Below are positions 3,939-22,756 of a stretch of 23,865 nucleotides of DNA, piece after piece. The first letter of the stretch is position 1, and the number at the start of each line of letters is the position of its first letter. The translations under genes were made by a program, and so were the position numbers. The stretch spans positions 1-23,865 of IMG/VR virus record IMGVR_UViG_3300025892_000153. One strand, written 5' to 3'. The notes beneath the pieces were generated by a model. It saw nothing but the letters and a program-made list of their open reading frames with translations, did not search any database and was not told the DNA's origin. This DNA is from a virus.

Positions 3939-3947
3939 ATAAATATA
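3939..3947 (-). promoter_or_regulatory. Candidate late-promoter element TATATTTAT
   Basis: Exact coding-strand TATATTTAT, 18 bases before the ATG at 3920 in the 29-bp gap ahead of the Ig-like/pentapeptide tail protein. The gap is nearly all A/T and has no -35/-33 partner. Confidence 0.5.
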
Positions 3948-3949
3948 TA

Positions 3950-4600
3950 TTATCTAAGGTTTCTGTTAGATTCATTTAATTTTATTAAGTTAGATGTATC
4001 TCCTCCAACATTTATACCTGCTCTAGTGAGAAAAAATAGTAAGTTATCCTTTATAAAAGGGTGTAAATTTTCGGAAATTATAACAAATTCTTTATTTCCT
4101 ATCCCTTCAGGTAATTGGTCAATTTTATCTAATTCAACTAATAAAGAAGGATTTTCATCATTTAATTTACTTATTATATAACTTCCACTAGTAAAAATTG
4201 GTGGGGTCACAGAATCATTAAATTCATTTACATCCACATATTGTTCTGAAACATAATCTTGGTTAAAAGAATATTTGTTACTTACTTCAAAATAAGGTGG
4301 ATTATTAGTAGAGTTATGACTTATAATTTCGCCTGTTGATAACTCCGCTAAGTTAGTAGTAAGTTTTGCCCCCCCTGAATTGTCATAACTACCTGTAAGT
4401 TTTGTTCTTATAGTATAATCATAATTAGGTATTCCTAAACCAACCACAGAATCACTATGAGGTCGGAAAGTTATAAAAAATCTCTTATCCCCAACCCATG
4501 AGGTATTATCTTTATAACCAAAAGCAGAATCTATAAAATCTTGGAATTGACTTCTTCCTAATACTTCAGTTGGTGTTTGAGTTTGTGGTTTACTTCCCAT
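3950..4600 (-). CDS. Unassigned tail-cluster protein
   Basis: 216 residues. The N-terminus is polar (SKPQTQTPTEVLGRSQF) and leads to a helix FQDFIDSAFGYK, then beta strands (DKRFFITFRPHSDSVVG). The C-terminal half contains PSLLVELDKIDQLPEGIGNK (about 150-169) and a helical, hydrophobic segment LHPFIKDNLLFFLTRAGINV that may be a membrane-inserted or buried helix. No family recognised. The 29-bp gap behind it carries an exact promoter-like nonamer, so this gene may end a transcription block before the next tail genes. Confidence 0.5.
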   Translation of the reverse strand: MGSKPQTQTPTEVLGRSQFQDFIDSAFGYKDNTSWVGDKRFFITFRPHSDSVVGLGIPNYDYTIRTKLTGSYDNSGGAKLTTNLAELSTGEIISHNSTNNPPYFEVSNKYSFNQDYVSEQYVDVNEFNDSVTPPIFTSGSYIISKLNDENPSLLVELDKIDQLPEGIGNKEFVIISENLHPFIKDNLLFFLTRAGINVGGDTSNLIKLNESNRNLR

Positions 4601-4613
4601 AATTATTTAAATT

Positions 4614-5849
4614 TTAAGGATTAGCAGGACCTGAGTCTGAATTAGAACCACCTGCCCAAGCAGGAGGGGTTGAAATTAATGAGCCCGTAAAAAACTTATC
4701 TATTATTAATTGTTGGTTATATATAGTAAATTCAGCTCCTAAATCATTTTGTGTACTAGAAGTAGCATAAAATAATTGATTAGATCCTGAATACCTTACA
4801 CCATATCCTGAACCCGTATTATCTGTATCATGTCTTTCTACTAATAACATTTTTTGGAGTTGACCAGAATTATTAAATATATTATAAGAAGATTTTAAAT
4901 TATCATCTATAGTTTCGTCAAAAAGTTTAATTTCAGCTTCAGAATTAATAGGGAAATCATGATAAAAAGATCTATAAAATCCTTTCTTTTTTACATTTGT
5001 TTCATCATTCCCTCTAATACTATGTCTAGTAATACTTAAATCATCATTAATTGTAAGATATTCATGCATAGTAATATATGAAAAACCTTCAAAATGAGTT
5101 AAAGTACCATCATCAATACTACTACTATTCATTCCTACTATTCTACTTCCTAAATAAATGTTTCTTGTATAATTTTGAAGAACAGGTGTTTTACCATAAG
5201 TGGTATCCCCATTAGTAAATTCATTAATAGTAGATGCTTGTAATTGTTTACCAGTATAACGTGATGAATTCCAAGCTTTAGTTTCTAAAACTGAGTCATT
5301 AAATTCAAATTGTTTAGAAATTATTTGTTTTTGACCTAATACTGAATCTCCTATCCATAATTTAATTTCTGTAAATCTAACATCATTATCTCCAGGATCA
5401 GGTGGTGGTGTTTCGTCAAAATTATCGAATTCAATTTTTAAAGTATATAATGTCTCTATGGGGGTATCTCCATTTTCTATATTATATGGAGTATCTGTAT
5501 ATATAGTAGTATTATATGATGATGCTCCTGTACTTTGTTCAATTGTAGTTTCATCTAGTCTTCCTTCATTAAATATAAGTTTATAACCTAATGCTACACC
5601 AACTGAAGTAGTGACTTTACCTAAACATTTTAATTCATTTCTAGTTTCATATAAACCATTTGTTCCAAAATTAAATAATACATGAGTAGTTTCACTATTA
5701 TTGTTTATAACAATACCATTCCCTACTGGTACATTGTTATCAAAAAGTTTAGTTAAATCATCATATAAACCATTTAAACTATGACTGACATTTATACTAA
5801 AATCACCATTATTATATTTAGTAGCAAGATCTAATTGATATAAACTCAT
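4614..5849 (-). CDS. Distal tail/baseplate structural protein, unassigned
   Basis: 411 residues, almost entirely predicted beta with short loops, Asn/Asp/Thr-rich like tail fibre or adhesin proteins. Notable segments are HEYLTINDDLSITRHSIRGN (about 270-290) and a Pro/Asp loop ETPPPDPGDNDVRF (147-160). The C-terminus is short and Gly/Pro/Ser-rich (PPAWAGGSNSDSGPANP), ending like a flexible tail. No domain family could be named. It overlaps the start of its neighbour by four bases at 5849-5846, linking its production to the large gpI-like protein. Function is inferred only from position in the tail cluster. Confidence 0.55.
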   Translation of the reverse strand: MSLYQLDLATKYNNGDFSINVSHSLNGLYDDLTKLFDNNVPVGNGIVINNNSETTHVLFNFGTNGLYETRNELKCLGKVTTSVGVALGYKLIFNEGRLDETTIEQSTGASSYNTTIYTDTPYNIENGDTPIETLYTLKIEFDNFDETPPPDPGDNDVRFTEIKLWIGDSVLGQKQIISKQFEFNDSVLETKAWNSSRYTGKQLQASTINEFTNGDTTYGKTPVLQNYTRNIYLGSRIVGMNSSSIDDGTLTHFEGFSYITMHEYLTINDDLSITRHSIRGNDETNVKKKGFYRSFYHDFPINSEAEIKLFDETIDDNLKSSYNIFNNSGQLQKMLLVERHDTDNTGSGYGVRYSGSNQLFYATSSTQNDLGAEFTIYNQQLIIDKFFTGSLISTPPAWAGGSNSDSGPANP

Positions 5850-8800
5850 GAGAAATAATATTTTTTGCTTAATCTTCCTTTTTGTGCTACATTTTCAACT
5901 GCAGTACTATAACTACCACTTTCAATATAAGCTACAACATCAATAAATACATCATGAACTGTTTCATTTGTAGAAGTTATAGATCCTGAAGGTGAATATT
6001 CAGCTAAATGTTCGGTTAATTGTTCATAGTCAATATTTGTACCAGCAATCTTTGTCCTCTCCAAATAATGTGGTTCAATAACTAAACCAGTTTTTAAATT
6101 AGCTTTTGCTGGGACAAATTCCTTAATCATTTTAAATAATGTATGATCAAAAAATTGTATGGTTCTTATGTAGTCACCTATTCCTAATTTTTTACTTAAT
6201 TTTTGAGTATATATGTCTCTAATAGTTTTTAAATCGGGATAACTACCAGAGGTATAGTGGGTTGGGTCACCAATATAATCATCTAATCTAAATCCACCTA
6301 AAGTATAAATTATATCTTCATTAACTTCAAAAGTTGGTGAGAAAAATACACCTACATCTGAATAATCAAGTGGTTGTCTATCTTGGGGTGATGTTTCAAC
6401 TGAAATAAATGGATCTAAGAAATTATCATCAAATGTACCATTATCAATTCTAACTTTATCTGATACCATTCCGGAACCTACTGTGTCAGGTGTTGTTAAA
6501 TGGTGGGTTTCTTCTATATTAACTGTTTTACCGGGGTAATAATATATGTTAGATATCCCGGTAAAACCATTTAATGATAAATTAGGGGCATAATTTAATT
6601 TATTTTGTCCATACCTAAGAGCTTCTGTTGCGTCAGAACTTGGGCCTGTAAGACCTAATGTGGATCCTAATGGAGATCTATATAATAATTCTTCATAACT
6701 AGAACTTATTGAATTGCCGTTATAATTAAAGGGTGATAAAGATTGAGATATTATAGTAGATTCATTAAGTACTTCTCTCCATATTCTAAGTTCTTGTATA
6801 GAACCAGTATATTCTATTCTTGGAGAAGTATCAGAGACTCCTATAAAAGTTTTATCTTGGCGAAGAGGTAAAACCCATAAAGTTTGGGATAGTATACCTA
6901 AATTAGTGTCAAAATAATTACCAGCATTTAAACTACATGAAGTTACATAGGTGTTTTTATTAAAAGTAGTTTGAGTAGCATACGCTGTTATATTTTCAGT
7001 ATTTTGATGGTCAAAATTAACAGTTATATTCCATGGTTTACCGTTATAAAAGGGGACTAATGAACTAGATACTACTTTTGTGAATGGACTAGTTAAATCA
7101 TTAGCTGAACTACCAGTTACTATAAGTAAATGTGCAAATGACCCACTTTCGTATAAATCATTATTTATACTTTGAGATATTTGAATAGCTATTTTACCTT
7201 GACCTGTGTTAGTCCCTATAGCTAATATTGTTTGGGTCCCTGTTTTGAAATTATTATCAGGTAAATATCTTACTTGGATACTTTTAGGTGTCGCTGCGTT
7301 TGTACCACCCCAAGCATTATCGTCAAAGATTCGAAGAGCTCTAAATACAGCAAAATCATATGAGTTTGAAAGGGATTCTTCATTACTTACCATTTGGCTT
7401 TCTTTCTGGTAACTAAATGTTCTAAATCCTGTTTTATCTACTAATGGTCCACCATATTCTTTAACATGTAATACAGTTTCAGGGATACCATAACAAGCAA
7501 TTAATGCTTTTAATCCACGTTCAGTACCTTTAGTTTTTAAAAGGTATGATGAATTATGATATAATCGTTTCCAGATTTCTTTAGCAATATCTCCTTTAGG
7601 AATGGGTGCATTAGAAGCAGAAATTAGAGTTGACCCATCAGTAGGACTATATTCAAACGTTCCTGTTCCATCATCACCAATAAGGTATTCATATAGTGAT
7701 GAGTTTGAAAATTGATCATATGCACTAATACCTCTTGAAGTTAATTGATTTAATACTAAATCTTTTGATATACCATCTTTTAATCCACTATGTGCTTCAT
7801 TTATATCGGTTATACTATCTATATAAGCCCAAATACCATCAAAGTGTTGAGCTATCATCTCAACAAACAGGATATACTTATCATTTTGTGTATTATCCTT
7901 AATATGAGGTGGGATAGTGTTTACTAAATTATGTTGATTAATTTCATCATATTTAGAAGCACTCAACATTTGTCCTCCATAATATGTGTTATTATAATCA
8001 CCTACAGGAGCTCCAAACCAAGATACAGCAGCTGCGGAATTTACTTTAGCATTTGTATGGGGTAAAGTATTACTTGTTTTGGGCCATGCATATGCTCCAG
8101 ATTCATAGTATAAGTATCTTTCATAGTAATCAAAGCCTTGAATTAATCTATCTTGTTTATTTAATATAATATTTTTATTTTCGCTTACAAAGGTAGACGA
8201 TGTTATATCTCCTGTGATATTATCTAATTTTGCTAATGAGCCCGAATACGTTTCTAATAATTCTAATTTATACTTAAAATTACTTAACCTTTCAGTGGCT
8301 GAGCTAAAATGAATAAAGTTTTCAAAATGATAGCCTGTAGATGTGTCAGGGTTATCAAATTCTAAATCAACTTTAATTTCACTACCACTTAATAAATTTT
8401 GTACATTATTAAAACTTGAACTTATAGATCCATTACTTAATATTTGATCAAAAGTTTTTTGGCTACTGGGTACTGTAAATATGTCTTCGTTTGATAATGA
8501 AAAATTGGGTGCACCAATATCGATACTAGTATCAATTAATGTTTCTTGTTCTAATTGAACAGTAACTTCTAAAGGATTGATTATTTCTTCAATAATATTA
8601 AAAGAATTTCCTATAGAAAGGTTAAACGGTAAAGGATTATATAATTTAATTAACCCAGTTTTATCTCTGCTTAATATAGCATTTAATACTAAAGTAGAGG
8701 ATTTGCCAGAAATTAAATTAATATCTCGTATAAATGGAGATATATTTAATATACTATTTAGTACACTTAAGGTATTTTCAAAATCTACTTGAGTAATATC

Positions 8801-9184
8801 ATTAGGAGTAATTCTGATTTCTCTTCTAGAAGGAGAAATTTCAGATATAATAAAAGCATCCTTATTAATATTTAAAATTTTTCTTCTAAAAGAAAAATTC
8901 ATTACATAAGTTCCCGAGCTATATCCATAGTCTTTAAGAACTTGTTCATAATCTATATCTATAGAGGTTACTTTAGGTGTACCACTAGTGCCAGGAGAAT
9001 TATAATAGGGAGTATATTCCCTAAAATTTTCATCAAAAAGTAATAATTTTCCTTGTTGGTCAAATATTTCAAGTTTAACAAAATCATTATCCTGCCCAAA
9101 ATTCCTTACTAACTGTGTAGTAGAAATTTGTTCTATATCTTGAGAATTTAAAGTCTCTATTATTTGGGTATTTAATATGGCCAT
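5846..9184 (-). CDS. Large baseplate/tail protein with P2 gpI-like and LamG-like domains
   Basis: 1112 residues, the largest gene here. Residues 1-330 are beta-rich with TTQLVRNFGQDNDFVKLEIF at 22-41. Residues 435-575 match the tail protein I type: YILFVEMIAQHFDGIWAYID (437-456), IAKEIWKRLYHNSSYLLKTK (533-552) then GTERGLKALIACYGIP, which is the characteristic gpI closing motif. A LamG/concanavalin-like sandwich spans about 635-815, ending in EYTGSIQELRIWREVLN. The C-terminus (880-1112) is a further beta domain. Tail protein I joins the baseplate to fibres; the LamG-like part may bind sugars. It is probably the functional stand-in for T4 gp7/gp8-type wedge proteins. It overlaps the next gene by four bases (ATGA). 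Confidence 0.72.
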   Translation of the reverse strand: MAILNTQIIETLNSQDIEQISTTQLVRNFGQDNDFVKLEIFDQQGKLLLFDENFREYTPYYNSPGTSGTPKVTSIDIDYEQVLKDYGYSSGTYVMNFSFRRKILNINKDAFIISEISPSRREIRITPNDITQVDFENTLSVLNSILNISPFIRDINLISGKSSTLVLNAILSRDKTGLIKLYNPLPFNLSIGNSFNIIEEIINPLEVTVQLEQETLIDTSIDIGAPNFSLSNEDIFTVPSSQKTFDQILSNGSISSSFNNVQNLLSGSEIKVDLEFDNPDTSTGYHFENFIHFSSATERLSNFKYKLELLETYSGSLAKLDNITGDITSSTFVSENKNIILNKQDRLIQGFDYYERYLYYESGAYAWPKTSNTLPHTNAKVNSAAAVSWFGAPVGDYNNTYYGGQMLSASKYDEINQHNLVNTIPPHIKDNTQNDKYILFVEMIAQHFDGIWAYIDSITDINEAHSGLKDGISKDLVLNQLTSRGISAYDQFSNSSLYEYLIGDDGTGTFEYSPTDGSTLISASNAPIPKGDIAKEIWKRLYHNSSYLLKTKGTERGLKALIACYGIPETVLHVKEYGGPLVDKTGFRTFSYQKESQMVSNEESLSNSYDFAVFRALRIFDDNAWGGTNAATPKSIQVRYLPDNNFKTGTQTILAIGTNTGQGKIAIQISQSINNDLYESGSFAHLLIVTGSSANDLTSPFTKVVSSSLVPFYNGKPWNITVNFDHQNTENITAYATQTTFNKNTYVTSCSLNAGNYFDTNLGILSQTLWVLPLRQDKTFIGVSDTSPRIEYTGSIQELRIWREVLNESTIISQSLSPFNYNGNSISSSYEELLYRSPLGSTLGLTGPSSDATEALRYGQNKLNYAPNLSLNGFTGISNIYYYPGKTVNIEETHHLTTPDTVGSGMVSDKVRIDNGTFDDNFLDPFISVETSPQDRQPLDYSDVGVFFSPTFEVNEDIIYTLGGFRLDDYIGDPTHYTSGSYPDLKTIRDIYTQKLSKKLGIGDYIRTIQFFDHTLFKMIKEFVPAKANLKTGLVIEPHYLERTKIAGTNIDYEQLTEHLAEYSPSGSITSTNETVHDVFIDVVAYIESGSYSTAVENVAQKGRLSKKYYFS

Positions 9185-10018
9185 TTATGAGTTAGGGTCT
9201 AAATCTGCTAATTTGTTTTTAATGATGTCTTTAAGTGCCTCTATGGCTTCAAATAAATCTTCTGTCCTTTGACCAGATGAACTTTTTTCAACATCAGCTT
9301 TCCATTGACTGTAAGTTCTATTTTGGTATTTAAGGTCACTAGATTTAGCTTTTTCATAAGCTTGTCTTAAATCTTTACCTGCTCGACTATCATCAAAATC
9401 AGAACCTACTATATTATTTGCCCTTATTTTGAGATCATTATAAGTCATTATGGGATTTTCAGGATCGCCACCTATTTGAGTTAAATAAGCATCATATGCA
9501 GCTTGAGCTTGTTGGCTATTAATTTGACCTTCTAAAGTATCTGCTATTTGTGTGACTAAAGTTTCAATTTCACCTTCTAATGTTGAAATTTGTCCTTCTA
9601 ATTCACTTATTTGACTATTTAAATTATCTACAACACCTTGAAGTGGGTTATTATAACTGCCTACATAATCTAAACTAGTTTCTATTATAGTAGTATGAGA
9701 ATTTTCTCCTTCTTTAGGGATATCAAAAAAGATTTCATTATAAAAATTAAAAAACTGATCAATTTCAATAGGAAGATTAGTACTATTTAATTCTTCAAAA
9801 GATATATTATTTTTATTATTAAATTCTTTTTTACTATATATAGTTCTAGTAAATGTTATATCCCCGTCGTAATTAGGAGGGACTGGATTTTCTTCATCTA
9901 CAACAGATGTAGAAAAATTTTGATTCATAGAACTATTATTTCTAGATTGAAAAATATCAGACGAAATATTATTTTCTTCTATAGTAGTATTTCCGTATTT
10001 AGTATTGTGCGAAGCCAT
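9185..10018 (-). CDS. Coiled-coil structural protein of the baseplate cluster
   Basis: 277 residues. The first 100 are polar, Asn-rich and probably extended. Residues 130-165 (LNSQISELEGQISTLEGEIE and a similar following stretch) form an unusually regular coiled coil with seven-residue steps, so a trimeric or dimeric rod is expected. The C-terminal part (180-277) is helical and highly charged, with RAGKDLRQAYEKAKSS and a final Asp-rich end. No known family. It lies between the DNRLRE-like protein and the large tail protein, and its stop is directly next to that start (9185/9184), so the products are likely to be assembled together. Confidence 0.55.
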   Translation of the reverse strand: MASHNTKYGNTTIEENNISSDIFQSRNNSSMNQNFSTSVVDEENPVPPNYDGDITFTRTIYSKKEFNNKNNISFEELNSTNLPIEIDQFFNFYNEIFFDIPKEGENSHTTIIETSLDYVGSYNNPLQGVVDNLNSQISELEGQISTLEGEIETLVTQIADTLEGQINSQQAQAAYDAYLTQIGGDPENPIMTYNDLKIRANNIVGSDFDDSRAGKDLRQAYEKAKSSDLKYQNRTYSQWKADVEKSSSGQRTEDLFEAIEALKDIIKNKLADLDPNS

Positions 10019-11184
10019 TATGATTTAACTATTTTAAAGTAACAATTTTCATCAAATACTCTTATACCATCATTATTCTCATGTTTAAATAAGAGTTTAT
10101 AATATCTTCCTTCTTGTAAACCATTCATATATAACTTAAAATACATACCTTCTAAGTCAGCACTTAGTTTAGACGTAGGTCCAAATGGTATAATAGTTTC
10201 TTCAGTAGCATAATCAATTAAAGAATAGTAAGATTCACTAGTAAAATATTTAGTGTCCAAATAATTTGAAGAAGTAACAAATCTACGTGTAGGATATAAT
10301 TCTCTAACATTAAGTCTAAATTTAGGTTCTTCTATACTTTTAAATGTACCTTTATTATTTCTTAAAGTTACATATATTTCTCCTGAATTTAAAATTGTAT
10401 TACTAGTAGCGGATCCTGTGTCATAGGATGAATCATCCCATGCAATGTCCAAATAAGGAGGATATATTGTATGGGTATCCATAGAGAAAAAGTTTAATTC
10501 CCCATCATTTATAGCAGTAAATTCTTGTGATCCTGAGCGTTTTAATATAAATCCATTATTAGTAATGCCATCAGGATAAGTTGCTGAATTATTACTGGCA
10601 CTATAGTGTTTTAAAACAGGTAATGTTATGTCTAAGGATATATCTAATTCATCATTATATCCATAACTCCTATCTACTTCAAAAGTAGATCCTGTGTACC
10701 ATACACCACCTCCTGGGGCATCATCTATCCAACTTCCCGTAGTACCCGCAGATAAACTGGCAGTATTCCAATACGTTCCGATAGCATTATATTTGGTTGC
10801 ATTTTCACTTCCATCGCGGTATTTCCAAGATACTCCATCAGTAATTTGTGGGATATTGTTTAATCTACCTGTACCATTTATCCAACTTTCAGCAAGAGGA
10901 TAAATTTCTAAATGTTGATCAGCACTTAATTCTTTATGTTCAGTTTGCCATAGCTTTAAACTAGCAGTGACAATATTTTTATTTTGGGCTTTATTATTAA
11001 TAACATCAACTAATTGGGTTGTATTAAACTGTATTAAAATTCTACTAGGATAAAAATTAGTATCTGTGTTAGATTTAATATCTCTTAATGTTAATATTTC
11101 ATCAATCCCCGTATTTAGAGTTTGATTTGTAGGACGAGAGTATATTGTAGCGTCTTTTTCAGGAAATAAGAAGTAATGTGCCAT
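10018..11184 (-). CDS. DNRLRE-like beta-sandwich tail/baseplate protein
   Basis: 388 residues. The N-terminal ~230 resemble DNRLRE/carbohydrate-binding-module-like domains: DATIYSRPTNQTLNTGIDEI (residues 11-30), then SRILIQFN, ASLKLWQTEH and QHLEIYPLAESWINGTG. In surface proteins such domains bind polysaccharide or stabilise beta-rich filaments. Residues 240-388 form a second beta region with TLRNNKGTFKS, then RLNVRELYPTRR, and a closing YYKLLFKHENNDG. No catalytic motif. Placed just after gp6, it is likely a wedge-attached protein, perhaps occupying the place of T4 gp7 or gp8, though no homology to those is claimed. It shares one base with the next gene. Confidence 0.6.
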   Translation of the reverse strand: MAHYFLFPEKDATIYSRPTNQTLNTGIDEILTLRDIKSNTDTNFYPSRILIQFNTTQLVDVINNKAQNKNIVTASLKLWQTEHKELSADQHLEIYPLAESWINGTGRLNNIPQITDGVSWKYRDGSENATKYNAIGTYWNTASLSAGTTGSWIDDAPGGGVWYTGSTFEVDRSYGYNDELDISLDITLPVLKHYSASNNSATYPDGITNNGFILKRSGSQEFTAINDGELNFFSMDTHTIYPPYLDIAWDDSSYDTGSATSNTILNSGEIYVTLRNNKGTFKSIEEPKFRLNVRELYPTRRFVTSSNYLDTKYFTSESYYSLIDYATEETIIPFGPTSKLSADLEGMYFKLYMNGLQEGRYYKLLFKHENNDGIRVFDENCYFKIVKS

Positions 11185-11193
11185 GGTTATTAA

Positions 11194-13068: not shown

Positions 13069-13080
13069 TATACTTTTTTA

Positions 13081-13551
13081 TTAAAGATTAAGATAATTAT
13101 TTAAATCAGTAGTTGATGCTGTACTCGGGTCATTAGTAAAATTTAAGGCCACTGAATCTTCTTCTTCACTATTGTTTAAACTATAATTTACAGTTACAAA
13201 TAAAGTATGTCCTTGTAAACCACCATCCTGAAGAGCTATATTTTTTATAGTAATTTCAGGAATATATTGTTCAATTTGGGGGGTTATTACATTTCTTAAT
13301 TCATCGCCTGATATAGGGGTATTTTGTTGAAAAAGTCTATTTTTTAATCCCACTCCAAAATTTGGGTTATATAATCTTTCACCGGGTGAAGTTAATAATA
13401 CATTAATTAATTTAGATTTAGCATGTAATTTTGTAGTATAATCTAAATCAAATATCTTTTTTTTATTAAAAGGTAGACGTATCCCTACTGCGACTTTTTC
13501 ACTAATATCAACAGGATCTATTTTAACAGGTTTACGTAGTTTAATAGCCAT
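13081..13551 (-). CDS. 25: Baseplate wedge protein gp25
   Basis: 156 residues, slightly longer than T4 gp25 (132). The GPW/gp25 family layout is clear: GIRLPFNKKKIFDLDYTT (residues 23-40), a helix KSKLINVLLTSPGERLYNPN, then FGVGLKNRLFQ, with GER in the place of the conserved E-P-R loop. A second helix covers DELRNVITPQIEQYIPEI and is followed by antiparallel strands (LFVTVNYSLNN). In contractile injection systems this protein joins the sheath to the wedge core and bears the conserved lysozyme-like fold without lysozyme activity. Adjacent gp6 is its known partner, supporting the assignment. Confidence 0.92.
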   Translation of the reverse strand: MAIKLRKPVKIDPVDISEKVAVGIRLPFNKKKIFDLDYTTKLHAKSKLINVLLTSPGERLYNPNFGVGLKNRLFQQNTPISGDELRNVITPQIEQYIPEITIKNIALQDGGLQGHTLFVTVNYSLNNSEEEDSVALNFTNDPSTASTTDLNNYLNL

Positions 13552-13916
13552 TAGGGTCTAAATTCTTTTTTCTTTTCAATTGCTTTCATTACTGGACTCC
13601 AATCTTTATTTAAAAACTGATTTACAGGATCATTAGCAGCAAATGTTTGTTCTGGTGTAGGAGTTACAGCAGTTTCTGATAATAATGAATTAAGAGTATT
13701 ATTGCTTGTATTAAAATTAGGAGGTGGTATTTGTTCTCTTAATTTTGCTCTAAAATCTTCAATTTCTTGAGTATTATTTGTAGTTTCTATTACACGCTGT
13801 TGGGTGGGTTGGATAACTAACTCTTCTTTTAGTAATGCTATTTCACGTCTTAATGCATGATCTATTTCTTCTCGCACAACTTTTCTAATTATTTTTTCGA
13901 ATGCATTTATTTTCAT
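13551..13916 (-). CDS. Unassigned coiled-coil protein before gp25
   Basis: 121 residues. It starts with a strongly amphipathic, charged helix (FEKIIRKVVREEIDHALRRE, residues 6-25, continuing to about 35). A Gln/Thr-rich stretch and a second short helix (EDFRAKLREQIPPP) follow. Residues 70-105 are polar and probably disordered, and the end is basic (KAIEKKKEFRP). The first helix resembles helices in other proteins of this window (LIKEELNAF in the acidic protein). No enzyme motif is seen. Its stop and the gp25 start share one base (TAATG), so it is likely made in step with gp25 and may be a wedge assembly factor. Confidence 0.55.
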   Translation of the reverse strand: MKINAFEKIIRKVVREEIDHALRREIALLKEELVIQPTQQRVIETTNNTQEIEDFRAKLREQIPPPNFNTSNNTLNSLLSETAVTPTPEQTFAANDPVNQFLNKDWSPVMKAIEKKKEFRP

Positions 13917-13931
13917 CGTTATTAGTTTTTA

Positions 13932-13940
13932 ATAAATATA
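13932..13940 (-). promoter_or_regulatory. Candidate late-promoter element TATATTTAT
   Basis: Exact coding-strand TATATTTAT in the 31-bp gap, 15 bases before the ATG at 13916, ahead of the 121-residue protein, gp25, gp6 and the rest of the wedge genes. The surroundings are almost pure A/T and lack a -35/-33 partner. Confidence 0.5.
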
Positions 13941-13947
13941 AATTATT

Positions 13948-15254: not shown

Positions 15255-17224
15255 TATGTTACTAAGTTTGCTAATCTACTTGATTCGTTAACTAAATCAG
15301 AACCATTCCACTGGGCATAAAATCCTTTACCTGTGTTAAGGGTTTCTTCAAGAATATTACCACTTGATATGTTAATTTTATCACACCATTTAGGTACATT
15401 AAATAATGGACAAGGTTTATTAGAACATTGGTTGTGTCCTAATACTTTTATATCAGGATATAATTCAACATATTTACGGGTTAATCTTTTAAGAGTATTA
15501 ATTTGTCCTCTAGTAATATCAAAATTTAATGGTTCGCCAGGTCCTGAATATCCACCAATCCAATTTAAGTGGATACTATTAGAGTTGATCCCAGAAGCAC
15601 CATTAGTACTTATATCGTCCGAATACACCCTAGTACCATTACCATTTCTATCTATTATCCAATGGTAACCTCCTGTTTTCCAACCACTACCATCTCGTTC
15701 ATTAAAAAAGAACCTCATCAAACTAGCGGGGGTTGTTGATGTGCTAGAGCCAGCAGTGTGAATTACTAAATATTTAATATCTCGTTGAGTAGTTTTAGCC
15801 ATAGTTAAACTACGGTCAGGTAGAGGTAATACTAATAAAGCTCCTACTTTGTTTTTGAAAACGGCTTGTGTACCCCTTCTCCATTTATTTTCAGCATCTA
15901 TATTAATTTGTTTATAATCAACATCAACAGGTATTTCATCAGGTTGGAGATCTTCTAGTACACTAGGGTTAGGATAACTTACTTCTGGTTGATTATCAGT
16001 TGTAGGGTCAAATTCAGTTCCCCCTATTTCTATTGATTCTTCATTAAATACTAATAATTCTTCATCTTGTGCTTCATCTAAAGCAGCAAATACTGGATCT
16101 ATTTCTTCTACAGATTGGGTAGTTTCTATTTCTATTAATGGGTTAGAATCAATAATAGGAACATCAATATTAAATTGAATATTTTGGATTTGTAATTCTT
16201 GCTCTGGTAAAGTTTGAGGTATTATAGTTACAGGTTTTTTACTAATTTCTTCTAAAGGATTAGAAATGGGAGTATAAGTTGAATTTAAAGAATCAATATT
16301 AGTAGAAGTTGTATCTATAGGAATATTTTGATTTTCAAGCATATAAATCGAAGCAGCATCATTAGTTACATTTTCTTGAGACCCATTTCCTAAACTAAGA
16401 ACCATAGCTTTATCTCCTATACTAGAGTTTCCATCATCTGGGATATCTGTTACATTATTACTTATAGCATTAGTCCCCGTTGGTCCCGTAGTAGTAAAAC
16501 GAATTCTTTGTCCATTTTTACCTTCCATAATAGAATCTCCTTCACTTGGAATTAAAGGTCTTAATTCAGGGTTTTCTTTAAAATAATTCCCTAATTTTGT
16601 AGCAGCTTGCTCATTATCTTGTGAATCATCTAATCTAAAAATATAATTCCCATTTGCTGTTTGGGTTAGATTATATAATGGGGCATTGGGGTCATTACTA
16701 CCTGTATATCCTAGACTAACTAAATAATTATCTAATTGTTTTTTAGCTGTTTCTCTACTAGGTGATTTGAATTCTTTTTTAAATTCAAAAGATCTAACAT
16801 TAGTTTCTCTTTTAGATCTTAATTTTCTAGAATCTTTTTCTAAAGGTAAAGCATTACTAGTAGTATTATTATGAATATTGATAGCAGGAGTATAGTAATT
16901 AGTTGTAGTACTAATATCTCCTTCTAAATCATTATATATATCATCACTAGTTGATTCTATAATCTGGACTAATTCCCCAATTGTAGGATAAGTAAAGTTG
17001 TTTTTATTTAAAGGTTTAGCAGAAGGGAGAGTAGTAGAATCAGTATAATCTTGATTAAAACCAACTTCTACAAAAAATATAATACCTATATCTTCAGGAC
17101 TGTTATAAGATTTATGATCAGGAGATAGAATTATGTCAACAACCCTTTTAGTTGGGTTTTGATTTTTAGGATTTCCAGAATTACCTACTAAATTACCTTT
17201 GTTTTTATTATTCCTTAGACTCAT
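15254..17224 (-). CDS. gp5-like baseplate spike/hub protein with C-terminal T7-type amidase
   Basis: 656 residues. Residues 28-100 (VVDIILSPDHKS..., then IGELVQIIES) resemble the gp5-type N-terminal OB-like domain. A segment at 228-300 (GDSIMEGKNGQRIRF, then GDKAMVLSLGNG and DAASIYMLEN) is typical of phage baseplate hub proteins. An acidic low-complexity linker spans about 305-440. The C-terminus (484-620) is an N-acetylmuramoyl-L-alanine amidase of the T7 lysozyme type: H489, H597 and C605 as zinc ligands, with Y520 and K603 as catalytic residues. Spacings are close to T7 (H17, Y46, H122, K128, C130). It should cut peptidoglycan locally during DNA entry. T4 gp5 carries a glycosidase here, so the enzyme type has been swapped. 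It overlaps the next gene by one base. Confidence 0.85.
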   Translation of the reverse strand: MSLRNNKNKGNLVGNSGNPKNQNPTKRVVDIILSPDHKSYNSPEDIGIIFFVEVGFNQDYTDSTTLPSAKPLNKNNFTYPTIGELVQIIESTSDDIYNDLEGDISTTTNYYTPAINIHNNTTSNALPLEKDSRKLRSKRETNVRSFEFKKEFKSPSRETAKKQLDNYLVSLGYTGSNDPNAPLYNLTQTANGNYIFRLDDSQDNEQAATKLGNYFKENPELRPLIPSEGDSIMEGKNGQRIRFTTTGPTGTNAISNNVTDIPDDGNSSIGDKAMVLSLGNGSQENVTNDAASIYMLENQNIPIDTTSTNIDSLNSTYTPISNPLEEISKKPVTIIPQTLPEQELQIQNIQFNIDVPIIDSNPLIEIETTQSVEEIDPVFAALDEAQDEELLVFNEESIEIGGTEFDPTTDNQPEVSYPNPSVLEDLQPDEIPVDVDYKQINIDAENKWRRGTQAVFKNKVGALLVLPLPDRSLTMAKTTQRDIKYLVIHTAGSSTSTTPASLMRFFFNERDGSGWKTGGYHWIIDRNGNGTRVYSDDISTNGASGINSNSIHLNWIGGYSGPGEPLNFDITRGQINTLKRLTRKYVELYPDIKVLGHNQCSNKPCPLFNVPKWCDKINISSGNILEETLNTGKGFYAQWNGSDLVNESSRLANLVT

Positions 17225-17558
17225 CTTTTGCTACTTCTTCGGCTATTGCTTGTAATTGTCTAAGTTCTTCATCTGTTAATAATGAATCACCACCACCTGA
17301 AGCAGCATTATTTTGTAATCTCTGAATAACAGCCATCATTTTTATAAGATGTTCATCATTTTTTACACTAACCTCTAAATATTCTTTAATAAGAGGAACT
17401 ACTACAGGAGCATCACCAATGTTTTGAATTAATGGTTTTAATTCAGAAATTAAGGAATTTATTTGTTTATCCTTTTTTTTACTATTACCATATATCTCTT
17501 TAAATACGTCTGACGCTGTTTTACCGTCAAATATTATTGTATCTAATGGGTTACTCAT
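17208..17558 (-). CDS. Unassigned phage protein between gp55 and the spike gene
   Basis: 116 residues from the ATG at 17558. A TTG eight codons upstream is in frame but would lengthen the overlap with gp55 from 8 to 32 bases, so the ATG is preferred. The protein starts NPLDTIIFDGKTASDVFKEI (residues 3-22), followed by KKKDKQINSLISELKPLI and a helical stretch KNDEHLIKMMAVIQRLQN. A Gly-rich linker (SGGGDS) leads to an acidic tail (TDEELRQLQAIAEEVAKDESKE). No catalytic motif is evident. Its place directly before the spike/hub gene, overlapping it by 17 bases, suggests a small baseplate assembly or chaperone protein; this is inference. Confidence 0.6.
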   Translation of the reverse strand: MSNPLDTIIFDGKTASDVFKEIYGNSKKKDKQINSLISELKPLIQNIGDAPVVVPLIKEYLEVSVKNDEHLIKMMAVIQRLQNNAASGGGDSLLTDEELRQLQAIAEEVAKDESKE

Positions 17559-18258
17559 GACGATAAATATATCCTCTTTCAAGATATCCAGAATAACAGT
17601 TATGAAAAATACCTTTCATAATTTTAACTACTTTAGTTATTATAGTTGTTTCCATACCTGTGATTTCTCTAATGTAGATATAAATAGCCTTTTTATTAAA
17701 TATTTCTAAATGTTCTCTTCTTTTAAATATTGTTAGTATGGCATCTGCTACTATTATATCTTCTGGTTTTTTAAAGGTTGTAAGTAATATACTATCCATA
17801 TGATCTATATATAGATCTAAGAATTCTGCTTTTTCGTTTCTTACTTCTTGTCGCTCAAATTCATTTAATATACCATCATCAGTATCAGCTTCCAATGGGT
17901 CTGCTTTACCTTTCTTTTTAGCATAATTCTTATTATTATATAATATAAGGTAATTTTTACCCACAATGCTAAAATACGAGAATGCTTTACCTTTACCTGC
18001 TTTAAAGTAATGAAGTTTCTCGAGTAGGAAGCAGATAACCTCGTGTTTTAAATCCTCGAGGTCATCTACTTCGGTGTAATAAAATTTAAATGTATGAATA
18101 AGATTCTCGGCTAACTTATAAAACGAATGGTGAATTCGTGAATTATAAATCCGATTTCTCTCTGCTTGATCTTCGCTCGCTAAATATTCTATTATTGCGT
18201 GCTCTGTATCTTCTGTAAAATATTGTCTTTTACTTTTGCGTCCTCTTTTTTTAGTCAT
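17551..18258 (-). CDS. 55: Late-transcription sigma factor (T4 gp55-like)
   Basis: 235 residues, somewhat longer than T4 gp55 (185). The N-terminus is strongly basic (KKRGRKSKR). Residues about 38-115 have the sigma-70 region 2 layout: a first helix (RIHHSFYKLAENLIHTF), the acidic DDLEDLKHEV with FLLEKLHYFKAGKGKAFSYFS, and NYLILYNNKNYAKKKGK. No region 4 is visible, as in T4 gp55, which with the clamp and coactivator directs host RNA polymerase to late promoters lacking a -35 box. Central residues 120-150 are acidic and family-variable. The C-terminus (190-235) differs from T4 and would be the region to examine for clamp contact. The gene precedes the baseplate genes it presumably controls. 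Its 3' end overlaps the next start by eight bases and contains an exact copy of the TATATTTAT element. Confidence 0.85.
   Translation of the reverse strand: MTKKRGRKSKRQYFTEDTEHAIIEYLASEDQAERNRIYNSRIHHSFYKLAENLIHTFKFYYTEVDDLEDLKHEVICFLLEKLHYFKAGKGKAFSYFSIVGKNYLILYNNKNYAKKKGKADPLEADTDDGILNEFERQEVRNEKAEFLDLYIDHMDSILLTTFKKPEDIIVADAILTIFKRREHLEIFNKKAIYIYIREITGMETTIITKVVKIMKGIFHNCYSGYLERGYIYRHE
17563..17571 (-). promoter_or_regulatory. Candidate promoter element TATATTTAT at the end of gp55
   Basis: Exact coding-strand TATATTTAT encoding part of the gp55 C-terminus (GYIYRHE), only four bases before the ATG at 17558. A start this close would give an almost leaderless transcript, so it may be chance; it is listed because three other exact copies stand directly before genes. 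Confidence 0.25.
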
Positions 18259-18263
18259 TTAGG

Positions 18264-18512
18264 TTAGCGGAGGCGAAATTCGTTTAGTGCCTCCTGTATC
18301 TTCTTAACTTCGGTAAAAAACCAACCAATTTCATCATCAGTAATAAAGAAACCTTTATCGTCTATTTTACTTAATCTCTTATCACAAGAATCTATAGCTT
18401 CACTTTGTTTAACAATAAAATCTTCTAACTCTTCGTTTTTCTTAATTAAATTACGAATAGCAAATCCAGCTACAATTAGTAGGGCTAATAATATTCCAAT
18501 TAGTATTTCCAT
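18264..18512 (-). CDS. Membrane-anchored coiled-coil small protein
   Basis: 82 residues. Residues 2-18 (EILIGILLALLIVAGFA) form one hydrophobic helix followed by a basic stop (RNLIKK). The remainder is charged and helical with heptad-like Leu/Ile spacing (ELEDFIVKQSEAIDS, then EVKKIQEALNEFRLR). One N-terminal anchor plus a coiled-coil body resembles many small phage proteins, including i-spanin-like and lysis-control proteins, but no family is recognised and no outer partner gene is seen, so function is open. It shares one base with the HD-like gene upstream and lies five bases before the gp55 gene. Confidence 0.6.
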   Translation of the reverse strand: MEILIGILLALLIVAGFAIRNLIKKNEELEDFIVKQSEAIDSCDKRLSKIDDKGFFITDDEIGWFFTEVKKIQEALNEFRLR

Positions 18513-19294
18513 TAGTCAGTAAAGAATGAATCAATAATTGATTTAGTTTTTTCGTTGAAATTAGGATTATTTTCTACGTTTATCGCTTTAGCCTTCCTTA
18601 AATTTTTATCAGCTTTGGAGGCATTTGCGGGTTTAGACGGTTGTTGTATAACCGAACCTCCGGAATTCCAAATTTGGTATTCAATTTCTTGGGCTGTTTG
18701 GATAGCTTGGTGGAGGAGTAAAGGTAGGTGGGTTCTAAGTTTAGTTTCTTTTTGACCACTATAGAAATAAAATTTATTACTTTCATCAAATAAACCTTCT
18801 TGATTGCGGATGGCTAAATACTCATTATGTGAAATTTTAATACTAGCATCCTGTAGTAAATACATGGTGCGATCATAAATTTTCATAGCTGGTACATTTT
18901 CGTTAAATTTATATACCATACCTAAATTCTTAACGTGCCAATCAGAATCATTTTTAGTAAAATACTCACTATCCCAATCTCCTAATTTACCTAACTGACC
19001 AAATAGAGATACAAAATTAAGTTCTTCTACTGTATATGATTCATTAGCTTCATGGAATGAATATAATTTATGTAATTGGTTAGCTATTTTATTTACACGT
19101 AAAATATGATCTAAATAACCCCCTGGAAAAGCATTATTAAACCAATCTTTAGTGGATGCAGGAGCAAACATCATTCGCTCTTTTAAGCAATCCGTAAGTG
19201 TTTTTAACTTTTCTAGGCGTTCACCTTCAAAATTTGTTTCTAAAACACCGTTAAAGGTTTCAAAATTAACCTTAATTTGTTCTGCTCCTATCAT
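18512..19294 (-). CDS. Degenerate HD-domain protein
   Basis: 260 residues. Residues 58-75 (GGYLDHILRVNKIANQL) look like the first helix of an HD phosphohydrolase, with H63 in the place of the first metal-binding His. The motif that should read HD-x-G-K appears as FGQLGKLGD (98-106), so the His-Asp pair is replaced by G99-Q100 while G102 and K103 remain. A later helix LLLHQAIQTAQE (about 192-203) would hold the final Asp in active enzymes but has none in the usual place. The domain therefore looks catalytically dead, perhaps a binding or regulatory protein. The C-terminal 50 residues are Lys- and Asn-rich and probably disordered. Its gene overlaps both neighbours (four bases upstream, one downstream) in the run to gp55. 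A relation to active phage HD proteins is inferred from motif layout only. Confidence 0.6.
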   Translation of the reverse strand: MIGAEQIKVNFETFNGVLETNFEGERLEKLKTLTDCLKERMMFAPASTKDWFNNAFPGGYLDHILRVNKIANQLHKLYSFHEANESYTVEELNFVSLFGQLGKLGDWDSEYFTKNDSDWHVKNLGMVYKFNENVPAMKIYDRTMYLLQDASIKISHNEYLAIRNQEGLFDESNKFYFYSGQKETKLRTHLPLLLHQAIQTAQEIEYQIWNSGGSVIQQPSKPANASKADKNLRKAKAINVENNPNFNEKTKSIIDSFFTD

Positions 19295-19494
19295 TCTAAA
19301 AATCCTACTCGTGATTGATCTTTTTCAGGCGTTATGCTGATAATATTTTGGAGTTCTCCATACAACTCTTTTAAATCATTTTCCATATAATGGGTTGCTT
19401 TAGTATTTTCACCTCGTTTAACCATACTATGTACACGAGATAAGCCTTGATCTAAACGATCTAAGGCTATTTGTAATTGTCTTTTATAAGCCAT
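19291..19494 (-). CDS. Unassigned small helical protein
   Basis: 67 residues. Basic N-terminal helix (YKRQLQIALDRLDQGLSRV, residues 3-21), a short loop with KRGENTKA (27-34), then an acidic helix (NDLKELYGELQNIISI) and a polar tail. Two antiparallel helices are the likely fold. No family is assigned and no catalytic residues stand out. The last four bases overlap the start of the HD-like gene (ATGA), indicating coupled translation and suggesting that the two proteins work together. The start is an ATG after A-rich sequence without Shine-Dalgarno. Confidence 0.6.
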   Translation of the reverse strand: MAYKRQLQIALDRLDQGLSRVHSMVKRGENTKATHYMENDLKELYGELQNIISITPEKDQSRVGFLE

Positions 19495-19509
19495 ATTATT
19501 TATTTTTTA

Positions 19510-19518
19510 TTGAATATA
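19510..19518 (-). promoter_or_regulatory. Weak promoter-like element TATATTCAA
   Basis: Coding-strand TATATTCAA differs at two positions from the recurrent TATATTTAT motif but has the same spacing, 15 bases before the ATG at 19494, in a 33-bp gap. Its position is more persuasive than its sequence. Confidence 0.25.
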
Positions 19519-19527
19519 CGAACGTTT

Positions 19528-19806
19528 TTACCGCTTTCCAAATTTTTTATAATAAGAATTACATACTCTTAACCTTTCTTTAAAGTGAGTTTTACTTTGT
19601 GCTTCAGGGTTATGAGCTAAAAATTCACTACTTAAAATATTGAGTGAATTAAGAAATTCTAATGTTTCACCAACATAATGCAATTCCAACCTATTTTCTA
19701 GGGGGATTATATTTTTTAAGTGAATTAATTTTTGCCTAATAGAATTACGCCACGCATCGAATTGTGCGTCTATATCTATGGTATCGAAGAAACTATTTAA
19801 TGACAT
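19528..19806 (-). CDS. Unassigned small helical protein, first gene of the gp55 cluster
   Basis: 92 residues, not recognised. The composition is all-helical: an acidic amphipathic N-terminus (residues 1-20), a Leu-rich centre (LENRLELHYVGETLEFLNSL, about 36-55), and a basic C-terminus with one Cys (RLRVCNSYYKKFGKR). There is no membrane segment or catalytic motif. It is the first open frame after the 84-bp regulatory-looking intergenic region, so it may be the best-expressed gene of the set that ends in the sigma factor. The start is ATG at 19806, immediately after the repeated ATGCGAA element. A 33-bp gap separates it from the next small gene. Confidence 0.6.
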   Translation of the reverse strand: MSLNSFFDTIDIDAQFDAWRNSIRQKLIHLKNIIPLENRLELHYVGETLEFLNSLNILSSEFLAHNPEAQSKTHFKERLRVCNSYYKKFGKR

Positions 19807-19834
19807 GATGCGAATTATGCGAACCGGTGCGCAT
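19793..19834 (-). CDS. Possible 13-residue leader peptide with canonical Shine-Dalgarno
   Basis: ATG at 19834-19832 opens MRTGSHNSHHVIK and stops (TAG) inside the next gene. It is preceded by GGAGG at 19844-19840 with a five-base spacer, the only textbook Shine-Dalgarno noticed in the window. The peptide frame is +1 to the 92-residue gene, whose ATG (19806-19804) lies inside it. A leader peptide controlling the downstream gene by coupling is possible, but the frame may be chance. Confidence 0.25.
   Translation of the reverse strand: MRTGSHNSHHVIK
19817..19834. promoter_or_regulatory. 18-bp near-palindrome, operator-like
   Basis: ATGCGAACCGGTGCGCAT reads the same on both strands at 16 of 18 positions, centred on ACCGGT. 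A third ATGCGAA copy lies at 19808-19814, next to the start codon of the 92-residue protein. Symmetric GC-rich half-sites in AT-rich DNA suggest a dimeric DNA-binding protein site. It lies 10 bases upstream of that start. Confidence 0.45.
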
Positions 19835-19841
19835 TTCCCCC

Positions 19842-19864
19842 TCCTCCCCTACAGTAAGGGAAGA
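19842..19864 (-). promoter_or_regulatory. Strong hairpin in the leader of the gp55-containing gene cluster
   Basis: On the coding strand, the arms TCTTCCCTTA and TAGGGGAGGA pair over 10 bp (two G-U wobbles in RNA) around a three-base CTG loop. The 3' arm contains GGGGAGGA, a Shine-Dalgarno-like sequence that would be buried in the fold. No U-tract follows (GGGGGAAATG does), so an intrinsic terminator is unlikely; a translational or RNA-stability element, or a DNA inverted repeat, fits better. Confidence 0.5.
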
Positions 19865-19890
19865 TACGGCAAAAGGGATGAAAAGCCAAA

Positions 19891-21093
19891 TTATTTTTTG
19901 AGTCTATAACGAGGAACATCATCTGAAGGACCTGTTATGGCTATTGATTTACCTATCTCACCAGTAATTTCATCACCTTTTTGGTAGTCAATTTTACCAT
20001 TTTTATCTATATAAAGAATTCCATCAAACCCATATGCATCCATATATTCTTTAATTAGTTCTTTTGATAAATCAAGTCTAAACTGTCTATAATTCATTTC
20101 ATTTTCAGAAAAATATGAATCTAGGTTAAAAAATTCTCCTTTTGGATACCACTTAGATTGGTTATATATCTTAGATAAGACAGACATTACACCAGATTCA
20201 AATTTCTTTTTATCAAAATTATCTTGATCCGAATATAAATCATATATAAGAGCTAATTTAGTAGGCCAGTTTTTAGATATATCTAAATATTTTAAAGCAT
20301 CTTCTTCATCTTTTTTATCCATTCCTAAATTAACAACAAATTGTTCGAACTTTCCTTTCTTTTTAGTCTCACTCCATTTACCCCTATTATATCCCTTAGC
20401 TATAACTGCACCTCCAGCACCTGTAGAACCCTTTAGTTCTACATTATCTTCAGAACCAATAGTTAAATCACCACCAGTTTCTCTCTTTTTAGCATTCTTA
20501 AATAAAATAGAAAATAAAATTTCTCCGGGTCCAATATTTACATTTTTTTCATCTGATGTACTACCCATACTTCTATATAAAGCAGAAAGTTTATCTTTAG
20601 AAAGGCCTTTGGGCATATCATCAGCAAAATGGTCATTTTTAATATTTAAGTTAATAGGATTATCTATATAATTTGCAAAAGCATTTTCAAGATCTAATTT
20701 TTTTAATTCGGCCCTAAATTTACTTATATGTTTAGGTAATAAATTAGATTCTTTTGATTTTATGTTTAAATATTTTTTAATCTTTAAATTAATACGGGAA
20801 TTTTTTAAATATTCAAAAGCGTCTGATATTTCTTCATCATTAAGATTTGCTTCTTCAGCATATCGAGTTAAATCTTTTGCTGTAATTTTTTCTATAGGTT
20901 TACCTACTCCTTTTACAAGTAACTTTTCCATTTCATCATCAGAAAAAAGACTTAATTGCTGTTCAGGTAATTTTATACCTTCTTCTTTAAGAATGGTTTT
21001 CAAAACACGAAGATCAGAGGGGCTATCCATATCTGGATAGCCCTTCTCACATCGGTAGGCCCATTCATTAACTAAATTGTCAATGTTGACCAT
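19891..21093 (-). CDS. Putative PD-(D/E)XK-type nuclease-like phage protein
   Basis: 400 residues. The N-terminus carries LVNEWAYRCEKGYPDM (residues 7-22), a helical motif that recurs at the start of various phage proteins. A long helical Lys-rich linker follows. Residues 188-222 hold GPGEILFSILF then GGDLTIGS and NVELKGS. The helix Glu (E191), D209, E219 and K221 match the E...D...E-x-K layout of restriction-endonuclease-fold nucleases. The C-terminus (349-400) is a compact beta-rich segment (GFDGILYIDKNGK). If the pattern is real, the protein would be a metal-dependent DNase with roles such as packaging, recombination or host DNA degradation; a structural role is also possible. It ends just before the unusual 84-bp intergenic region and probably closes its transcription unit. 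Confidence 0.5.
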   Translation of the reverse strand: MVNIDNLVNEWAYRCEKGYPDMDSPSDLRVLKTILKEEGIKLPEQQLSLFSDDEMEKLLVKGVGKPIEKITAKDLTRYAEEANLNDEEISDAFEYLKNSRINLKIKKYLNIKSKESNLLPKHISKFRAELKKLDLENAFANYIDNPINLNIKNDHFADDMPKGLSKDKLSALYRSMGSTSDEKNVNIGPGEILFSILFKNAKKRETGGDLTIGSEDNVELKGSTGAGGAVIAKGYNRGKWSETKKKGKFEQFVVNLGMDKKDEEDALKYLDISKNWPTKLALIYDLYSDQDNFDKKKFESGVMSVLSKIYNQSKWYPKGEFFNLDSYFSENEMNYRQFRLDLSKELIKEYMDAYGFDGILYIDKNGKIDYQKGDEITGEIGKSIAITGPSDDVPRYRLKK

Positions 21094-21098
21094 AGGAA

Positions 21099-21539
21099 TT
21101 ATTTTTGTATGTTTGCAAGCTTTTGGAAGCGATCAGTGACAGTGTTAGGAACTTCTTTCTTAACTGATTCATTTAAACCCTGATTTACATCAGTAGCATC
21201 AGCTTTTACTTTTTGAACTTGATCTGCCTTATAATTAGGATATCCTACAGCTTCATCAACTCCTTCCTCATCATCCTCACCATCAGCAATTTCTTCTTCT
21301 TCAGTTTCTTCATCCTCTAAATCCATAACTTCTCCTTCCTCTTCCTCTTCTGGTTCAACCAAAGGTTTAAGCATGTTAAAAATCTGTCTTAAAGTATCTA
21401 AAGCTTCATCCCCATCTTCTACAGCGGGTTCATCAGTTGTTACTTCAATATCGTCACCAGCATCAACGTCATCGTCTTCTGCCTCAAGGAAAGCATTAAG
21501 CTCTTCTTTGATAAGTTTGTTTAATTCTTCAATAGTCAT
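21099..21539 (-). CDS. Extremely acidic small protein (scaffold-like composition)
   Basis: 146 residues. An N-terminal helix (LNKLIKEELNAFLEAE, residues 5-20) is followed by about 80 residues dominated by Asp and Glu (roughly 20-100), including runs such as EEEEEGEVMDLEDEE, then a more basic, hydrophilic C-terminus with DRFQKLANIQK. The low-complexity acidic core should be disordered. Such composition is seen in phage prohead-core or scaffold proteins (T4 gp67 is small and acidic) and in DNA-mimic inhibitors; the sequence does not decide between them, and no homology to gp67 is claimed. Five bases separate its stop from the start of the 400-residue protein gene. Confidence 0.6.
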   Translation of the reverse strand: MTIEELNKLIKEELNAFLEAEDDDVDAGDDIEVTTDEPAVEDGDEALDTLRQIFNMLKPLVEPEEEEEGEVMDLEDEETEEEEIADGEDDEEGVDEAVGYPNYKADQVQKVKADATDVNQGLNESVKKEVPNTVTDRFQKLANIQK

Positions 21540-21540
21540 T

Positions 21541-21969
21541 TTATTTTGTTTTGAAAAGTTCGTTAATTTTATTTCTAACTTCAGCTCTAATTGATTCTTT
21601 GAGCTTAATTTCTTTCATTTTATCCTCAGTAAATTTTTCAGTTACTTCTTTCATTGAGTGACCTTCTAATTCTTTTAGGAATGTTTTGAAAGATGGCTTA
21701 CTATCCATATTGCGGGTAACTGTTTCGTAGTGTTCCATGTATGAGTAGTAAGCAGGAACGTCTTTTAAGTTTTTAAAAACAGTTTCGGTAGCTTTTTCTC
21801 TTTGATCTTCATCTGATTCTCTAAGAGTAGTACCTAACTTTTCTAACTCAGTGTACATTCCTTTTTTAAACTCGTATGGGTTTACTGATTCAAAGTCTAA
21901 ATCAACCCCAACTTTACCTTTAACTTTGTTAGGTTTTCTGTTATATCCGTAAAATTTGTCGTTAGCCAT
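21541..21969 (-). CDS. Unassigned charged helical phage protein
   Basis: 142 residues; no family recognised with certainty. The N-terminus is basic (residues 1-20, RKPNKVKGKVG). The rest is strongly helical and charged, with Lys/Glu-rich segments at 95-142 and a C-terminal amphipathic helix IRAEVRNKINELFKTK. The spacing of Glu, Lys and Leu suggests helical bundles or coiled coil; there is no membrane segment or catalytic motif. It is followed directly by the very acidic protein gene (stop at 21541, next start at 21539), and the two may act together. Both look like small conserved phage proteins of the head-scaffold or morphogenesis type, but this is a guess from composition and position. It is the first gene behind the exact promoter-like nonamer at 21984. 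Confidence 0.6.
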   Translation of the reverse strand: MANDKFYGYNRKPNKVKGKVGVDLDFESVNPYEFKKGMYTELEKLGTTLRESDEDQREKATETVFKNLKDVPAYYSYMEHYETVTRNMDSKPSFKTFLKELEGHSMKEVTEKFTEDKMKEIKLKESIRAEVRNKINELFKTK

Positions 21970-21983
21970 ATGTTGGTTTTGTT

Positions 21984-21992
21984 ATAAATATA
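21984..21992 (-). promoter_or_regulatory. Candidate late-promoter element TATATTTAT
   Basis: Exact coding-strand TATATTTAT in the 29-bp gap between the GH16-like gene and the next gene, 14 bases upstream of the ATG at 21969. No -35/-33-like element is visible upstream, as expected if a gp55-type sigma factor lacking region 4 reads it. It also resembles the Bacteroidota -7 box TAnnTTTG, except for the final G. Confidence 0.5.
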
Positions 21993-22747: not shown

Positions 22748-22756
22748 ATACATATA
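22748..22756 (-). promoter_or_regulatory. Candidate promoter element, variant TATATGTAT
   Basis: Coding-strand TATATGTAT, one mismatch from the recurrent TATATTTAT motif. It lies in the 30-bp gap between the nuclease and GH16-like genes, 20 bases before the ATG at 22727. No partner box is evident upstream. Weaker than the exact copies. Confidence 0.35.

Follow-up and report, generated by a model that had tools for sequence, protein, structure and literature searches.

N[A/C]TATTTAT, a probable late promoter box in a large T4-like virus group, mostly uncultured

Sequence comparison indicates that the element N[A/C]TATTTAT very probably serves as the late-gene promoter signal in a large T4-like virus group whose members are for the most part uncultured. 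We hold with good confidence that it is the late promoter of this T4-like lineage and that it is most likely recognised by the phages' own gp55-like sigma factor on the host RNA polymerase. The window, that is, the whole stretch of DNA analysed here, is a 23,865-bp virus record (G000) with its genes on the minus strand, including the baseplate genes gp25 and gp6 and an amidase gene, and gave no megablast match to phage records.

The whole window has five exact copies of TATATTTAT on the minus (gene) strand and none on the plus strand (Table 1). A sequence-only reading had listed these five copies and the distances of four of them to the next ATG, and a strand-wise motif search returned every copy and all four distances. 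Five gene-strand copies compare with 1.36 expected under dinucleotide shuffling (P ~0.01), which is weak when taken alone, and one-mismatch copies, 44 over the whole window against 67 expected, form an uninformative count. When each intergenic gap of at least 20 nt was shuffled separately, 3 of the 6 window gaps held the box against a shuffled mean of 0.04, and 0 of 2000 shuffles reached 3; the three intergenic copies occupy gaps of 29-31 nt. The copy at 2575, inside a gene, is what chance predicts. Gene starts are longest-ATG calls, save in annotated records. A glycosyl hydrolase family 16 domain (Pfam E 2e-14) was also seen in the phage gene at 21999-22727, whose product is perhaps a polysaccharide-degrading enzyme.

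Table 1. Predicted elements and associated genes in the window.
Feature	Position	Strand	Remarks
Predicted late promoter box TATATTTAT	21984..21992	-	14 nt before ATG of gene 21541-21969; predicted +1 = A21979
Predicted late promoter box TATATTTAT	13932..13940	-	15 nt before ATG of gene 13551-13916; predicted +1 = A13927
Predicted late promoter box TATATTTAT	3939..3947	-	18 nt before ATG of gene 3243-3920; predicted +1 = A3934
Predicted late promoter box TATATTTAT	17563..17571	-	Overlaps 3' end of gp55-like gene; 4 nt before ATG 17558-17556
TATATTTAT copy within gene 2158-3228 (codes Y-I-Y)	2575..2583	-	Chance-expected
Gene behind box at 21984	21541..21969	-	
Small gene behind box at 13932	13551..13916	-	Immediately before gp25; box upstream of gp25 and gp6
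Gene behind box at 3939	3243..3920	-	Orthologue of immuto26A_164; tail region
Gene behind box at 17563	17208..17558	-	Start set at conserved ATG 17558
gp55-like sigma factor (putative), 235 aa	17551..18258	-	Sigma region 2-like ~16-118; C-terminal helical domain 137-228
-33/-7-type promoter (predicted), TTG (19541-19539)-N20-TATATTCA (19518-19511)	19511..19541	-	Before gene 19291-19494; not late box

A scan with the gp55-like protein found at least 598 relatives, and words were counted in 80 of these loci together with the window. ATATTTAT was by far the commonest intergenic upstream 8-mer, being present in 148 of 375 regions. It stood upstream of genes 23 times against 0.12 expected in G001, a 168,946-bp relative, and in both G001 and the cultured Flavobacterium phage immuto ATATTTAT or words overlapping it ranked first for upstream versus coding enrichment. 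The genome-wide enrichment 10-25 bases before starts that the sequence-only reading had proposed as a check was found in G001, immuto and the 80 related contigs. A reversed-pattern control was dropped, since the reversed word TATTTATA itself belongs to many real sites. The 9-mer originally proposed is a real and conserved element, but it had to be redrawn slightly: its first position tolerates any base (C 43, T 24, G 9, A 7 at the gp55-like loci) and its second is A or C, because immuto late-side gaps without ATATTTAT frequently carry CTATTTAT. A supposed weaker relative at 22748 (TATATGTAT) does not fit N[A/C]TATTTAT.

The box is strongly conserved after the gp55-like gene, where [A/C]TATTTAT is found at 83/83 homologous loci and ATATTTAT at 81/83 (shuffled mean 4.5, maximum 9); logos were drawn after removal of near-identical sites, which the 83-locus count retains, many of these loci being near relatives. 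At L008-L011 the gp55-like frame stops before or within the box and the box is retained, so it is kept there as DNA and not as codons. These loci rule out a codon-driven origin of the 17563 copy, which reads Y-I-Y at the gp55 C-terminus; C-terminal tails of the gp55-like proteins include GYVKI and GYIYRHE. In L009 and L010 the script-extended gp55-like gene is interrupted by an in-frame stop close to its 3' end; the true ends lie earlier and the box is still there. Elsewhere, also in highly diverged phages, the box precedes 7 of 7 orthologues of gene 21541-21969, every full-length orthologue of gene 13551-13916 except L004 (which has ATATTTAA), and the orthologues of gene 3243-3920 in immuto (54% identity), G001, G003 and Microcystis phage Mel-JY01. 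Boxes in G001 precede counterparts of TerL, gp20, PhoH, head completion, sheath, tube, hub and tape genes, and those in Mel-JY01 precede gp20, tube and hub counterparts. Immuto, G001 and Mel-JY01 all lack a box immediately before the major capsid gene, and this gene would therefore need to be read from an upstream promoter.

The suggestion that the element is a late promoter is supported by a late-gene bias in the gaps of immuto and G001. Immuto gaps of at least 20 nt were split into 32 in a small-gene block at 60-78 kb and 36 from 78.9 kb onward, among the virion genes; judged by gene content, these blocks would be early and late, respectively. [AC]TATTTAT occurs in 20/36 late-side gaps (shuffled mean 0.92, maximum 4) and in 2/32 gaps of the small-gene block, and exact ATATTTAT in 11/29 and 0/32, respectively (Fisher P 8e-5). 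The corresponding counts are 12/19 late and 4/17 other gaps in G001 (P 0.02), where some boxes precede genes with non-structural matches, and 5/10 and 3/12 in Mel-JY01, a difference that is not significant.

Other promoter classes lie outside this late set. TATATTTAG is present in 16/32 immuto small-gene-block gaps and 0/36 late-side gaps, with GTTG exactly 24 nt upstream of 18/21 TATATTTAG sites vs 2/31 NATATTTAT sites. About 20 near-identical GTTG-N20-TATATTTAG-GTATCAATAATTAAAA promoters precede small genes in L099:10900-26200 (immuto 60-76 kb), and this is likely the immuto early promoter. The 19510 site in the window, previously taken for a weaker relative of the late box, appears instead to be a promoter of the -33/-7 type, with TTG and TATATTCA 23 nt apart in a register matching the immuto small-gene-block promoters; orthologues of gene 19291-19494 have no TATTTAT just upstream and lack the late element. 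A further upstream class, GG-N3-G[T/G]CARRR-N9-TATATTCA, was seen in G001 (L081-L089), G002 (L090-L093), L030, L032 and L066, with G[TG]CA exactly 12 nt before TATATTCA at 6/6 sites in G001, 7/9 in G002 (spacings 8-17) and 16/24 overall, a spacing reminiscent of T4 middle promoters (MotA box). In Mel-JY01 (L102-L105) a leader of the ACCTAACAGGA type recurs ahead of several genes around 130-131 kb and also at 69.9 kb; it is perhaps a leader of early genes or a signal for ribosome binding.

The box is improbable as a host -7 element of the TAnnTTTG type, which the host primary sigma would read at ordinary host-type promoters. The Bacteroidota primary sigma promoter has TTTG at -33 and TAnnTTTG at -7, and TATATTT shares TAnnTTT with the latter (PMC7366714); the immuto small-gene-block promoters also use the near-identical TATATTTAG. 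However, TTG at 23-24 nt accompanies 2/31 late boxes vs 18/21 small-gene-block promoters, and among 138 late boxes left after removal of near-identical sites only 5 have TTG 22-24 nt upstream, in agreement with the earlier remark that no -35/-33 partner is present. A free first base and a possible C at the second position argue against TAnn, the two promoter classes occupy separate genome blocks, and the cyanobacterial phage Mel-JY01 retains the box, which therefore tracks phage lineage and not host.

Recognition by the phages' own sigma factor directs attention to the protein encoded at 17551-18258, which is probably a far-diverged gp55 carrying an additional C-terminal domain. Sigma70_r2 matched 13 of 22 members (best 0.0017), the window member falling below the Pfam cut-off throughout; sigma factors were prominent among the best fold matches, none of the PDB matches reaching E 0.001; a PHROG late sigma factor match (E 7.5e-4) was obtained in 1/22 members; and hhalign against T4 gp55 gave P 0.02-0.04, marginal homology. 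The earlier description of the protein as a region-4-less gp55 goes further than these matches: the protein resembles sigma region 2, but similarity to T4 gp55 is marginal and an extra helical domain of ~100 aa (137-228) follows. Modelled alone (pLDDT 81), this domain found no credible match in the PDB; assignment as sigma region 4 or a gp33 fold was rejected on this result, and a natural gp55-gp33 fusion is unsupported for the same reason. Cyanophage gp55 loci, scanned only for deepening the T4-type profile, have no box after gp55.

Recognition of the promoter by some other phage factor is likewise improbable. The weak relationship of the gp55-like protein to T4 gp55 leaves room for one, but the resemblance to sigma region 2, by profile and fold, the position of the box immediately 3' of the gp55-like gene in all 83 loci, and the lone -10-like box, which is the T4 gp55 arrangement (PMC2988020), all point to the gp55-like protein. 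The T4-type clamp loader (phrog_168) was found in G001, G002 and Mel-JY01 and was not found in immuto (L098-L101) or the G003 fragment. A search for the T4-type sliding clamp PF02916 (gp45) found none in G001, immuto or Mel-JY01, which is weak evidence of absence and may reflect divergence because the proteins are so diverged. Late transcription in immuto may not be clamp-coupled. Two family-A DNA polymerases are annotated in immuto, unlike in G001, G002 and Mel-JY01.

The T4 late box is numbered from -13, and that of Aeh1 has a/gC at -13/-12 (PMC2988020). In this register the present box runs from -13 to -5 as N-13, A/C-12, T-11, A-10, T-9, T-8, T-7, A-6 and T-5; with N set at -13, the A/C choice falls on -12, as in Aeh1, and the T4 bases A-9 A-8 are replaced by T T. 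Among sites at least 8 nt from the ATG, the most conserved base outside the box is the A (88%) at T4-register +1, and A is found at the predicted +1 of 4/4 window sites (at 17558 for the 17563 site). Transcription would start at this conserved A, ~5 nt downstream of the box, with predicted leaders of 10 nt (21984 site), 11 nt (13932), 14 nt (3939) and 0 nt (17563). At the last site the predicted +1 coincides with the first base of the ATG (A), so that the mRNA would be leaderless. This would be unusual because only ~3.7% of leaders in B. thetaiotaomicron are <10 nt (PMC7366714). Immuto, G001 and the window have few Shine-Dalgarno-like sites, whereas such sites are common in Mel-JY01 (34%) and T4 (72%). 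In Mel-JY01, whose recorded source is Microcystis elabens, the box is retained but mostly stands further from the start codon, and leader length therefore follows translation mode. It is highly improbable that the box works at the level of RNA or translation, as a leader signal or processing site, and not as a promoter. The box does sit close to start codons in mRNAs that have no Shine-Dalgarno sites, but its distance to the ATG ranges from 0 to >40 nt and is greater in Mel-JY01, which uses Shine-Dalgarno sites; it is missing from early-side genes and from translationally coupled ones; and its spacing to the ATG after the gp55-like gene differs by subgroup (4 nt in one, 14-20 nt in others).

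As a late promoter, N[A/C]TATTTAT would be recognised by the gp55-like sigma bound to host RNA polymerase with no need of a -33 element, and starts at the conserved A would give leaders of ~0-15 nt in phages of hosts that make no use of Shine-Dalgarno sites; other genes would use other promoters, GTTG-N20-TATATTTAG in immuto and TTG-N20-TATATTCA in the window. We infer the start site, the late timing and recognition by the gp55-like protein from sequence features, the last of these from gene linkage, architecture and T4 precedent. The box is a variant of the T4 signal TATAAATA in which TT takes the place of the central AA, and its retuning probably went hand in hand with that of the phage sigma. 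A more far-reaching picture is tentative and rather unlikely as a whole: a deep and for the most part uncultured lineage with its own late code N[A/C]TATTTAT, in which the extra C-terminal domain of the diverged gp55 would replace gp33 and make this protein a natural one-piece late sigma, the code would be kept across Bacteroidota and Cyanobacteria hosts, and some mRNAs would be leaderless.

A literature search on the 9-mer with phage and promoter returned no paper on it, and no promoter work was found on the two cultured relatives, immuto and Mel-JY01. The box would supply a late-promoter sequence for a large environmental T4-like group (at least 598 sigma relatives), so that late genes and operons of these phages could be read from sequence alone. 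It would also offer a natural case in which box and sigma have moved away from T4 in step (AA to TT at -9/-8), which could help in locating the residues that set late-promoter specificity, and the cultured immuto permits testing, including of sliding-clamp coupling of late transcription.

Among the closest known systems is the T4 late promoter TATAAATA with gp55, gp33 and gp45, likewise a single -10-like box before virion genes without a -35/-33 element (PMC2988020). The two share a common register, an AT-rich core, T-7 A-6 and tolerance at -13, and both phages encode a region-2 sigma-like protein. A further likeness is that TATAAATA lies 14-28 nt before many starts in the T4 late region. As to differences, the predicted leaders here are mostly shorter, down to zero, A-9 A-8 are replaced by T T and T-5 is added, the sigma is very diverged with its extra C-terminal domain, and immuto has no detected clamp loader. 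As the sequence-only reading had noted, the element differs from the T4 late box: TATAAATA occurs in only 3/36 immuto late-side gaps, and N[A/C]TATTTAT is not a close variant of it. A review describes the late boxes of KVP40, 44RR, S-PM2 and Aeh1 as very like the T4 consensus or close relatives of it (PMC2988020), and none has been described with TT at -9/-8; the a/gC at -13/-12 of Aeh1 resembles the A/C at -12 here. The Bacteroidota primary-sigma promoter, which the immuto small-gene-block promoters and window positions 19511-19541 resemble, has the TTT of its -7 box in common with the late box, whereas the late boxes have no -33 element, accept any first base, allow C at the second position and end in T.
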